A DNA stretch of 64,000 bases, taken from positions 2,852,001 through 2,916,000 of the forward strand of contig NZ_JAPEOX010000001.1 of NCBI RefSeq assembly GCF_026340675.1, in the 5' to 3' direction. Below, one piece after another: positions 46,724 to 49,852 of this stretch. The translations under genes and the position numbers were made by a program. Below the pieces are notes generated by a model. It searched no databases and was not told the DNA's origin. It was given only the letters and a program-made list of their open reading frames with translations. How positions within the stretch are numbered: position 1 is the first letter of the stretch; each line of letters opens with the position of its first letter. The DNA is from Streptomyces sp. NBC_01264. Its GTDB lineage: Bacteria > Actinomycetota > Actinomycetes > Streptomycetales > Streptomycetaceae.

Positions 46724-47272
46724 GTGAGTGGCAGCGGATGGACCAGCACGTCGATGCCGTACCTGACCCCTCGCGCCGACGGGGACTCCGACGCCTGGAC
46801 CGCCGAGGCCGCCGCCTCGGGCCGTCGCGGCGCGCAGCGCATCCTGCACGCCGGCGAGGTCCGCGCCCCGACCGAAGTCGCCCGGATGCTCGGCCTACCG
46901 ACCGGGGAGAACGTCGTCGTCCGCCGCCGGATCATCGAACTCGACGGCGAGCCGACCGAATTGACCGACACCTATTACCCTGCCGACATCGCCGCGGGCA
47001 CCCCTCTGGCCGGAACGGCGAAGATCCGGGGTGGCGCCGTGACTCTGATGGCCGGGCTCGGACACATCGGCGCACGAGCCGTCGAAAATGTGACAGCGCG
47101 GATGCCCGGTCCCGAGGAGCGGGAGCACCTACGCCTCGGGCCGGTCGATCCGGTCCTCCAACTCGCCCGTACGACTTACAACTCGGCGGGCCGACCGATC
47201 CAGGCCGACGTGATGATCATGCCCGCCGGACGCCAGCAGTTGCGGTACGAGATCGACATCGAGGTCGCATGA
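46724..47272 (+). CDS. UTRA-domain protein lacking a DNA-binding domain
   Basis: A 182-residue protein from GTG 46724, chosen because AGGAGG lies a few bases upstream. It is a UTRA ligand domain like the C-terminal half of GntR/HutC regulators: LPTGENVVVRRRIIELDGEP, TELTDTYYPADIAAGTPL and RTTYNSAGRPIQADVMIMPA. The first 40 residues (GSGWTSTSMPYLTPRADGDS) are not a winged helix, so it cannot bind DNA by the usual route. Its stop overlaps the ATG of a full GntR protein with a similar UTRA domain, which suggests it is a ligand-sensing or dominant partner of that regulator. Confidence 0.75.
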   Translation: MSGSGWTSTSMPYLTPRADGDSDAWTAEAAASGRRGAQRILHAGEVRAPTEVARMLGLPTGENVVVRRRIIELDGEPTELTDTYYPADIAAGTPLAGTAKIRGGAVTLMAGLGHIGARAVENVTARMPGPEEREHLRLGPVDPVLQLARTTYNSAGRPIQADVMIMPAGRQQLRYEIDIEVA

Positions 47273-48051
47273 CCCTGTCCAGTTCCGCAGCCGCGGGCCC
47301 CGACCCCCGTCCGCTCCACGCCCGCATCGCCGCCGACCTGCGGGACGAGATCATGAGCGGCGACCTCGCACCGGGATCGAAGCTGCCTTCGACCTCGCGG
47401 ATGAAATCCCGGTTCGACGCCTCCAACGCAACGATCCAGAAGGCCGTCCAGCTCCTCAAGGACGAGGGGCTCGTCCTTGGCCGTGCGGGCGCGGCAGTGA
47501 CCGTACGGGACACCCGGCAGCGGACCGTTCGCCCGGCAGGCTCCCTCGCACCGGCCGTGGACGGGGCGGCCTACCCGTGGCTCGCCGAAGCATCGGAACC
47601 GGCCCGCGCAGCTCACAGCACCCTGCTGGCGGTGGAAGAGGTGCCCGCCGCCGGTGATGTCGCTGCCGCGCTCGGCCTCCCGGAGGGCAGCCCGGCCGTG
47701 TGCAGGCGCCAGCTGATCACCATCGAGGACGAACCCGCCGAGCTGGTGAGCTCGTACTACCCGCCGGCCCTCGCACGCGGCACGGCGCTCGCGGAGACCC
47801 GCCGGATCCGGGGCGGCACTCCGACCCTGCTGACGGAACTCGGGTTCGCGCCCCGCCGGAGCGTGGACCGGCTCTCCGCCCGGGTCGCGACGCAGGAGCA
47901 GTACACCGCCCTACGGCTGCCCGGCGACCTGCCCGTCCTGCGGACCCTCCGTACGGTGTACGGCGAGGACGGGCGACCGATCGAAGTCACCGTGATGGTG
48001 AAGGCAGGCCATCTGTACGAGCTCCAGTACGAGTTCACACCCGAAGCCTAA
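47269..48051 (+). CDS. GntR-family (HutC/UTRA) transcriptional regulator
   Basis: A 260-residue regulator. The winged helix is RIAADLRDEIMSGDLAPGSK, STSRMKSRFDASNATIQKAV and LLKDEGLVLGRAGAAVTVRD. The UTRA domain (95-255) contains ALGLPEGSPAVCRRQLITIE and ELVSSYYPPALARGTALAET. It is coupled to the HTH-less UTRA gene by an ATGA overlap. The stop codon TAA begins with the T of the IS110 core dinucleotide (CT, 48048-48049), and its last two bases come from the element. Before insertion the gene would have ended GCC-TGA, so the protein is unchanged, but its terminator now lies 1.5 kb away. Confidence 0.83.
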   Translation: MTLSSSAAAGPDPRPLHARIAADLRDEIMSGDLAPGSKLPSTSRMKSRFDASNATIQKAVQLLKDEGLVLGRAGAAVTVRDTRQRTVRPAGSLAPAVDGAAYPWLAEASEPARAAHSTLLAVEEVPAAGDVAAALGLPEGSPAVCRRQLITIEDEPAELVSSYYPPALARGTALAETRRIRGGTPTLLTELGFAPRRSVDRLSARVATQEQYTALRLPGDLPVLRTLRTVYGEDGRPIEVTVMVKAGHLYELQYEFTPEA

Positions 48052-48063
48052 TGGGACGTATCG

Positions 48064-48240
48064 GGTCGTAGAGACTTGATGTTGTAGCCGCCAGCAGGTG
48101 AGCACTTCCGATGCCGGAGCCGTTCGAGTTCTGTGGTCAGACCGTGCCCCTGCTGGTCGGCCGGGAGGCCATGACCGCTGATGGGATGGCGTGCCCGCCC
48201 ACGGGCGTGAGCACTGGATCCATTAGGCCGCGTGCCGTGC
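48064..48240 (+). ncRNA. Predicted IS110 bridge RNA
   Basis: Target loop: stem CCAGCAGG (48091-48098)/CCTGCTGG (48149-48156). It holds CCGATGC (48108-48114), near-identical to the left flank CCGAAGC at 48041-48047, and GTGGTCAG (48133-48140), the reverse complement of CTGACCAC at the right junction (49541-49548). Donor loop: hairpin GCCCG-CCCA-CGGGC (48193-48206) flanked by ATGGGATG (48181-48188), identical to the right end at 49532-49539, and by CCATTAG (48220-48226), the reverse complement of CTAATGG at the left end (48048-48054). This is the layout known for IS621 bridge RNA. The exact 5' and 3' ends are estimates. Confidence 0.7.
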
Positions 48241-48293
48241 CTTCCGCAGGCTGCTGTGCAACTGAACGAACGGATACGAGCGGGAGAGAACTG

Positions 48294-49520
48294 TTGCTGC
48301 TGATCGGTGACGACTGGGCCGAAGACCATCACGATGTCGAGGTCCAGGACGGGACGGGCCGCAAGCTGGCCGTCGCGACCCTGCCCGAGGGGGTGGAGGG
48401 CATCGCGAAACTGCACGCGCTCATCGCGAAGTACGGTGGCGCGGATGTGGACTCCGCCGAGGTGGTGGTGGGGATCGAGACCGATCGCGGCCCGTGGGTG
48501 CAGGCCCTGATCGCCTCCGGCTACCAGGTGTTCGCGATCAACCCGAGGCAGGTCAACCGGTTCAAGGAACGCTACGGAACCTCCGGCGCCAAGAGCGATA
48601 AAGGCGATGCGCACGCGCTGGCAGACATGGTCCGTATCGACCGTGACCAGTTGCGGCCCGTCGCTGGAGACAGCGAGCAGGCCCAGGCCGTGAAGGTCGT
48701 CGCCCGTGCCCACCAGACACTGATCTGGGAACGCACCCGCACCTTCCAGCGGCTGCGCAATACGCTGCGCGAGTACTTCCCCGCGGCCCTGGACGCCTAC
48801 GCCGACTTGGCGCTGACCAGCACGGACGCACTGGAGCTGCTGATCAAGGCGCCCACGCCCGCCACCGCGGCGAAGCTGACGCGCCCCCAGATCACCGCGG
48901 TCCTGACCCGCCACCGCCGGCACAACCGGCCCCAGAAAGCCGCCACGATCCAGACCGCGCTGCGAGAAGAACACCTCGGTCTGCCCGAACCGGTGACCGC
49001 CGCCTACGCGGCCGCCGCGACAGCCCACGCGCGCCTGCTGATCAGTCTGAACGAGCAGATAGCCGAGCTCGAAAGGCAGGTGAAGGCACATTTTCTTGAG
49101 CACCCGGACGCTGAGATCTACCTCTCGATGCCCGGCATCGCGGAGATCACCGGCGCCCGGGTGCTCGCCGAGTTCGGGGACGACCCCACCCGCTACGACA
49201 ACGCGAAGGCCCGCAAGAACTACGCCGGGACCAGCCCTATCACCCGGGCCTCCGGCAAGAGCCACACCGTCCAGGCCCGCTACGTCCGCAACAACCGCCT
49301 CGCCTCGGCCCTGCAACTCCAGGCGTTCTCCGCGCTGAACACCTCACCCGGCGCCCGCCGCTACTACGACAAGCAGCGCGCCCGCGACGCCGGCTACAAC
49401 CCTGCCCTCCGCCAGGTCGGAAACCGCCTCGTCGGCATCCTCCACGGATGCCTCAAAACCCGCACCCACTACGACGAAGCAACCGCCTGGTCACACCACG
49501 CCCAGCTCTATCCCTCTTGA
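48294..49520 (+). CDS. IS110-family transposase/recombinase
   Basis: A 408-residue IS110 recombinase. The RuvC-like DEDD domain supplies Asp in IGDDWAEDHHDVEVQD, Glu in VVGIETDRGP and Asp in GAKSDKGDAHALADMV. A coiled-coil stretch follows, then the C-terminal Transposase_20 domain with LSMPGIAEITGARVLAEFG and YAGTSPITRASGKSHTV, where the nucleophilic Ser is expected. TTG 48294 is chosen because GGGAGAG is upstream and homology begins at LLLIGDDW; an earlier in-frame ATG would translate through the predicted bridge RNA. The frame is complete. Only 20 bases separate the stop from the element's right end. Confidence 0.88.
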   Translation: MLLIGDDWAEDHHDVEVQDGTGRKLAVATLPEGVEGIAKLHALIAKYGGADVDSAEVVVGIETDRGPWVQALIASGYQVFAINPRQVNRFKERYGTSGAKSDKGDAHALADMVRIDRDQLRPVAGDSEQAQAVKVVARAHQTLIWERTRTFQRLRNTLREYFPAALDAYADLALTSTDALELLIKAPTPATAAKLTRPQITAVLTRHRRHNRPQKAATIQTALREEHLGLPEPVTAAYAAAATAHARLLISLNEQIAELERQVKAHFLEHPDAEIYLSMPGIAEITGARVLAEFGDDPTRYDNAKARKNYAGTSPITRASGKSHTVQARYVRNNRLASALQLQAFSALNTSPGARRYYDKQRARDAGYNPALRQVGNRLVGILHGCLKTRTHYDEATAWSHHAQLYPS

Positions 49521-49542
49521 CATGAAACGGCATGGGATGTCT

Positions 49543-49597
49543 GACCACCCCGGAACGCCACAACGCCCGCCACCCCTGGTCGGGGACGTGGCGGGCG
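49543..49597 (+). repeat. 55-bp terminator repeat, copy 2
   Basis: Identical to 46110-46164. It starts exactly after the right core of the IS110 element and includes the same 11-bp terminator stem. It was probably the original terminator of the GntR gene. Confidence 0.9.
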
Positions 49598-49667
49598 CTG
49601 TGTCGGAGTGCCGCACTTCGTTGTGCGGACCGAATGAGGGGTCCCGGCCGAAGCCGGGGGTACTGCG
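49587..49667. repeat. 81-bp direct repeat, copy 1
   Basis: An identical copy lies at 49772-49852 (period 185). It contains the hairpins CCGCAC-TTCGTT-GTGCGG and CCCGGC-CGAA-GCCGGG. The 104 bases between the copies carry further GC palindromes (for example CCGGGC-GAA-GCCCGG). No reading frame is supported here. Confidence 0.9.
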
Positions 49668-49771
49668 AAACCTCAAGCCACCACCCGACGGCCGGAGGCC
49701 GGCGCAGCCGGGCGAAGCCCGGGAGGCCGCCTGCGGCCGAGCGGTACGCGAGCACGGCGTCCAGAAGGAGT

Positions 49772-49852
49772 CGTGGCGGGCGCTGTGTCGGAGTGCCGCA
49801 CTTCGTTGTGCGGACCGAATGAGGGGTCCCGGCCGAAGCCGGGGGTACTGCG
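49772..49852. repeat. 81-bp direct repeat, copy 2
   Basis: Second identical copy of the 49587-49667 unit, ending 21 bases before the gltD stop. Its hairpins are placed to act as the terminator of the gltB-gltD operon. Confidence 0.9.

Follow-up and report, generated by a model that had tools for sequence, protein, structure and literature searches.

The element at positions 48048 to 49542 on the forward strand of the window (the whole 64,000-nucleotide stretch of Streptomyces sp. NBC_01264 DNA that was analysed) is very probably an insertion sequence of the IS110 group, mobilised through bridge-RNA-guided recombination, a mechanism already published for the family (PMC11208160, PMC11208158, PMC11187229). 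Sequence comparison is taken to establish the anatomy of the element, its borders, covariation of its target guides with flanking DNA, a weaker covariation on the donor side, an RNA structure evidenced by compensatory change, and the occupation of 14 sites under one guide; transcription, circle formation, catalysis and reprogrammability are predicted by analogy with the known family. In the proposed mechanism, an excised circle would bring the right and left ends together, and their junction would create a promoter (TTGACA, 17 bp, T-CT-AAT) for transcription of the left end; the left-end RNA would fold into two loops, one for the target and one for the donor. The target loop would pair with GC-CT-GACC plus weaker bases on either side, the donor loop would pair with the joined ends, and the recombinase would exchange strands at the CT core. 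On insertion the junction promoter is split, so that the element should then fall silent. The guides and borders of the original prediction are supported by these results, with a correction of one base to the right target guide.

Borders, copies and recombinase of the element

The left end of the element is 246 bases long and the right end 22 bases, cores counted in; a long non-coding left end 5' of the gene is a trait of the IS110 group and not of IS1111. IS110 and the mini-circle of Streptomyces coelicolor belong to the same family and come from the same genus as the window element. The 10.67-Mb host genome holds 14 copies with 100% identity across all 1495 bases, and every one of them is joined to its flanks as GC|CT on the left and CT|GACC on the right. 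In the window copy the left core dinucleotide CT lies at 48048-48049 and the right core CT at 49541-49542 (forward strand), with 1491 bp between the cores. A search of other genomes with the joined flanks of the window copy gave 11 alignments that spanned the junction. In four related genomes (L231, L232, L233 and L235) the site reads CCCGAAGC-CT-GACC with no element in it, and the borders are thereby fixed; the remaining seven of the 11 alignments differ around the insertion point. This empty-site comparison, which had been proposed as a check, places both core dinucleotides where they were predicted, and only the predicted end at 49548 overshoots the right core, by six bases. The identical host copies and the empty sites, together with the guide covariation described below, bear out the prediction of an intact IS110-group element with a bridge RNA in its left end. 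A plasmid search returned 135 matching records, of which the best reached 80-90% identity, and among the ten listed the annotation was IS110 family transposase or none. A stretch of approximately 65 bases 3' of the element is present twice, by eye at about 49600-49668 and 49778-49852.

The recombinase gene (48294-49520, forward strand) encodes 408 amino acids from a putative TTG start that was picked by homology and position. The protein scores 198.1 bits against NCBIfam NF033542 (cutoff 140), 125.4 bits against Pfam DEDD_Tnp_IS110 (cutoff 29) and 51.7 bits against Transposase_20 (cutoff 21.3); a search by sequence against solved structures gave no PDB chain at E 0.001. Inspection of the protein located the DEDD residues and the G--P----SG motif in the segments IGDDWAE, GIETD, KSDKGDAHALAD and GTSPITRASG, and certain acidic residues of the DEDD segments are presumably the catalytic ones. 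Among 25 aligned proteins D6, D7, D102, D105, P315, S320 and G321 are invariant, and E62 is conserved in at least 90%. The G--P----SG motif is that stated for the IS110 family in PMC11187229. Two relatives, L101 and L119, have an in-frame stop codon inside the recombinase-matched stretch. The only Rfam match inside the element above its gathering score is Ms_AS-4, an actinobacterial sRNA, at 49127-49208 on the minus strand and hence antisense to the recombinase gene; the Ms_AS-4 family may merely trace IS110 recombinase genes. An antisense open frame of 422 amino acids (48048-49316, minus strand) spans most of the element, as the hed frame of IS900 is said to do (PMC8141618); antisense frames are common because of the high G+C content.

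Guide segments, RNA structure and covariation

All four predicted guide segments are found in the left end, in the order of the published IS621 model. The left target guide (LTG) CCGATGC (48108-48114, forward strand, as are all the RNA features below) covaries with the left flank, and its match is enriched in the 14 host sites. The right target guide (RTG) TGGTCAG (48134-48140) is the complement of the core CT and of positions +1 to +5, and covaries with the right flank. It had been predicted as eight nucleotides, (G)TGGTCAG from 48133 to 48140; the seven that reach +5 hold, and the leading G, which matched in the window by luck, does not. Since 11 of the 14 copies have G at +6 and three have C, despite a guide base that would call for C, the right guide works to +5 and is effectively 7 nt long. 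The left donor guide (LDG) ATGGGATG(G)C occupies 48181-48190, with ATGGGATG at 48181-48188, and matches the right end at 49532-49541 except for one base. The right donor guide (RDG) CCATTAG (48220-48226) is the complement of the left end CTAATGG and varies with the left end in relatives. When the sequence is read against the IS621 model, the handshake guide of the target loop would be AC (48141-48142), complementary to the donor GT before the core, and that of the donor loop would be GC (48227-48228), complementary to the target GC before the core. The left-end RNA, the two internal loops, the LTG-RTG-LDG-RDG order and the CT core are common to IS621 and the window element (PMC11208160, PMC11208158), as are the handshake guides after both right guides and the circle-junction promoter. 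With one mismatch tolerated in the left guide and the right guide taken as 7 nt, none of 40,000 order-1 random left ends held all four matches in order.

The predicted two-loop fold is supported by comparative alignment and not by minimum-free-energy folding of the whole left end, in which the native sequence did not outperform shuffles (z -0.94, equalled or beaten by 39 of 200); the comparative test took the place of this folding. The RNAalifold consensus of 39 left ends (alignment A1, from which L114 is absent) places the helices of the two-loop part of the bridge RNA at 48084-48254. It consists of a target-binding hairpin (48090-48157, helices 2 and 3) and a donor-binding hairpin (48162-48246, helices 4-8), the positions of both having been converted by hand from alignment columns, and the guides sit in internal loops. 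Of the 45 consensus pairs, 22 have changes on both sides, and 97.1% of cells are paired; none of 500 shuffles equalled this pairing, and slid partners pair at just 38-47%. A search of Rfam 15 with the left end gave no family match, a difference from IS621, as is the preference for G at +6 described below.

Named bacterial genomes were scanned for relatives of the element, and the 80 best of 355 relatives were retained. The parser received 117 of 147 loci (L015, L016 and L018-L045 were left out) and could read 104 but not 13, yielding 39 distinct guide sets; a later batch of 22 loci included three that could not be parsed. The loci of Streptomyces blattellae were entered twice, with identical flanks counted once; the right flank of L112 was excluded for a spurious end match; and the left-guide window was shifted by hand by two bases (L145) and three bases (L146) because of longer loops. 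The proposed test of guides changing with insertion sites was run on these relatives, and guides do follow flanks. By permutations that take no account of kinship among elements, the guides matched their own left flanks at 4.83 of 7 positions versus 2.86 when reassigned (39 guide sets, 70 sites) and their own right flanks at 4.55 of 5 positions versus 2.25 (32 sets, 59 sites), and on neither side did any of 10,000 permutations reach the own value. Close (Streptomyces-type) and distant relatives each pass the test separately. For example, the NBC_00154 element has the guide GGAGTCAG and a right flank that starts with GACTC at four of four sites, and the G129 and G167 elements have the guide GGTGTCAG and a right flank that starts with GACAC at nine of nine. 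In pooled data (41 guide sets, 81 left and 71 right sites) the left match is 95-96% at -2 and -1, 59-75% at -6 to -3 and 33% at -7, and the right match is 99-100% at +1 to +4, 68% at +5 and 32% at +6. The counter-cases are L098, L099, L101 and L105, with left flanks that match the guide at one or two of seven positions; the right side fits at five of five in the first three, which could be the result of later rearrangement, and for L105 no right flank was found.

These data bear on an explanation in which the recombinase protein alone reads the target and the guide-like matches are incidental. Such a protein would account for the octamer that is invariant at all 14 host sites and for the G at +6 that is encoded by no guide. 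The explanation is highly improbable, as guides and flanks change together while the recombinases of the close group stay about 80-90% identical to that of the window; within the close group alone, none of 10,000 permutations reached the own value for the left flanks (17 sets) or for the right flanks (14 sets).

Covariation on the donor side, as expected if the bridge RNA also reads the element ends, is weaker. Over 13 distinct combinations the right donor guide matches the left end at 4.92 of 5 positions versus 4.08 (2 of 5,000 permutations), and a single combination, L122, falls short of a full match; relatives with the left end CTAATCA, CTAATGA or CTAATAA carry the corresponding right donor guide. 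In the window the left donor guide, compared by eye, agrees with the right end. In IS621, strand exchange is followed by pairing of the two bases 3' of each right guide with the partner DNA (PMC11208158). With one site taken per guide set, 37 of 39 have G as the first donor-loop handshake base, usually opposite C at -1, and the second base is often unpaired; in L215, from the later batch, the G is opposite T. This supports the handshake reading for the window and in part only for the clade.

Joining of the ends creates TTGACA-17-TCTAAT, in which the core lies within the -10 box and the predicted -35 box, TTGACA at 49517-49522 (forward strand), overlaps the TGA stop codon of the recombinase gene. 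All 36 distinct end pairs have TTGAC-N at a distance of 16-18 bp from the -10 box of the junction, 27 of them with the full TTGACA, and the -10 box is TCTAAT in 34 and CCTAAT in two; in the host genome a match of at least 5/6 occurs at 0.4% of random points. The promoter is predicted to arise only upon joining of the ends, and the constancy of CTAAT could be explained by its belonging to the junction -10 box.

Target choice in host copies and the base at +6

Fourteen identical copies at 14 sites are a natural specificity assay of one bridge RNA. The octamer GCCTGACC, which is present 1,167 times in the host genome, is invariant at all 14 insertion sites, and insertion sites were compared with a background of 149 such octamers from 1.26 Mb, those at most 600 bases from a stretch end or beside element copies having been dropped. 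At -7 to -3 the left guide matches insertion sites at 2.79 of 5 positions versus 1.22 for the background (p = 2.6e-6), and the A at +5 specified by the right guide is found at seven of 14 insertion sites versus 19 of 149. The predicted left target guide is obeyed in part: all 14 copies have the same bases at -2 and -1, the guide base is enriched over the matched background at -6, -4 and -3, -5 is borderline and -7 is not enriched. Among the 13 distinct left flanks of host copies none matches the guide at 7/7 and one matches at 2/7. The perfect 13-base target, CCGATGCCTGACC, has one uninterrupted occurrence in the host genome (G000:C1:3325677-3325689), and the loose left side may therefore partly reflect the scarcity of perfect sites. 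The window element has natural targets that are much looser on the left than those of IS621, for which 129 of 173 sites match its natural target (PMC11208160), compared to none of the 13 distinct flanks with a full match here.

The host copies also reveal a base preference. G at +6 is found at 11 of 14 insertion sites versus 39 of 149 background octamers, with p = 1.6e-4; this uncorrected value is for the most favourable of the four bases, taken at each of 30 positions, and unguided positions reached 0.01. A guide match at +6 was considered and rejected, G being favoured whatever the guide base in both host copies and pooled sites. A reading in which the bridge RNA picks the target and a G at +6, read by protein or duplex, sets part of the specificity for target and donor alike would explain this enrichment, the G at 43 of 71 pooled sites where the guide base calls for C in 66 of 71, and the G at +6 in all 13 combinations of right donor guide and left end. 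Against it stand the uncorrected p-value, a matched background that comes from the host genome only, the C at 20 of 71 pooled sites, the elements of G129/G167 (G at five, A at two and C at two of nine sites) and NBC_00154 (G at one of four), and the left end of L128/L129, unparsed and outside the counts, which reads CTAATGGTT with T at +6. Weighing both sides, we give this reading a shade under an even chance. The preference for G at +6 is the newest part of the analysis.

Stop codons, sister elements and related systems

The window copy is inserted at the TGA stop of a gene for a GntR-UTRA regulator (47269-48051, forward strand). The last two codons of the gene are GCC TGA in relatives but GCC TAA in the window, where the element end supplies the TAA, and a called gene ends at the same TGA in L231, L232, L233 and L235; since TGA is replaced by TAA, the end of the protein is unchanged. 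With genes called by our own simple scorer of codon-position G+C rather than by annotation, seven of 14 host insertions are at stop codons versus 27 of 149 background octamers (p = 0.011), and outside the host genome the same caller places 11 of 31 GA-target sites at stops; for contigs that end at the element the guide supplied the right-hand bases, and the call then tests the upstream gene only. This excess, together with the exchange of GCC TGA for GCC TAA in the window gene, is what would be expected if insertion at stop codons were an adaptation of targeting, in which a TGA target and a CTAA end keep the upstream protein whole. Such an adaptation is unlikely. The bias can be accounted for if gene interiors are avoided, stops among sites outside genes being not clearly more frequent for insertions (seven of 11) than for the background (27 of 54); the CTAAT end doubles as the -10 box and is found in sister elements whose targets differ; and one of the seven stop-codon insertions (L011) lies inside a second called gene as well. 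The stop-codon bias is likely to be a by-product of motif and selection.

In other actinobacterial families, the targets of sister elements are Shine-Dalgarno-like sequences. The 16 sites of elements with TTC guides (within L107-L138) lie on GAAAGGA-like sequence on the opposite strand, and a start codon (ATG or GTG) is 4-10 nt away at 10 of 16 TTC-target sites versus 11 of 56 GA-target sites. The published target motif of IS900, an IS110-family element of Mycobacterium avium subsp. paratuberculosis, is CATGN6TCTCCTT (PMC8141618) and resembles these TTC-target sites, whereas the window element targets GC|CT|GACC. ISEc21 likewise has an upstream non-coding RNA that names its target, and natural retargeting between relatives has been reported for IS1111-type seekRNA elements (PMC11187229); compared to the ISEc21/IS1111 type, the window element has a different target, and its donor guides are identified too. 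The term "stop codon" is absent from PMC11208160 and PMC11187229, and a search of titles and abstract beginnings, with most subscription journals and all preprints outside its scope, found no paper on the window element, stop-codon targets or the +6 base.

A broader proposal is that actinobacterial bridge recombinases need, in addition to the bases paired with RNA, a PAM-like G at +6 in target and donor, which either the protein or the edge of the re-formed duplex would read, and that their guides have come to specify translation signals, with TGA stops as targets of the Streptomyces group and Shine-Dalgarno sequences as those of the sister group; insertion at such signals would often spare the neighbouring protein. 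It is put forward tentatively, as possible but appreciably short of evenly balanced. The assay provided by the host copies shows which guide positions count in the wild and reveals a base preference that no guide encodes. The guide sets of the clade suggest that the IS900-type target, too, may be read by a guide RNA, and the 41 guide sets, with 81 left and 71 right sites, represent candidate bridge recombinases for GC-rich hosts.
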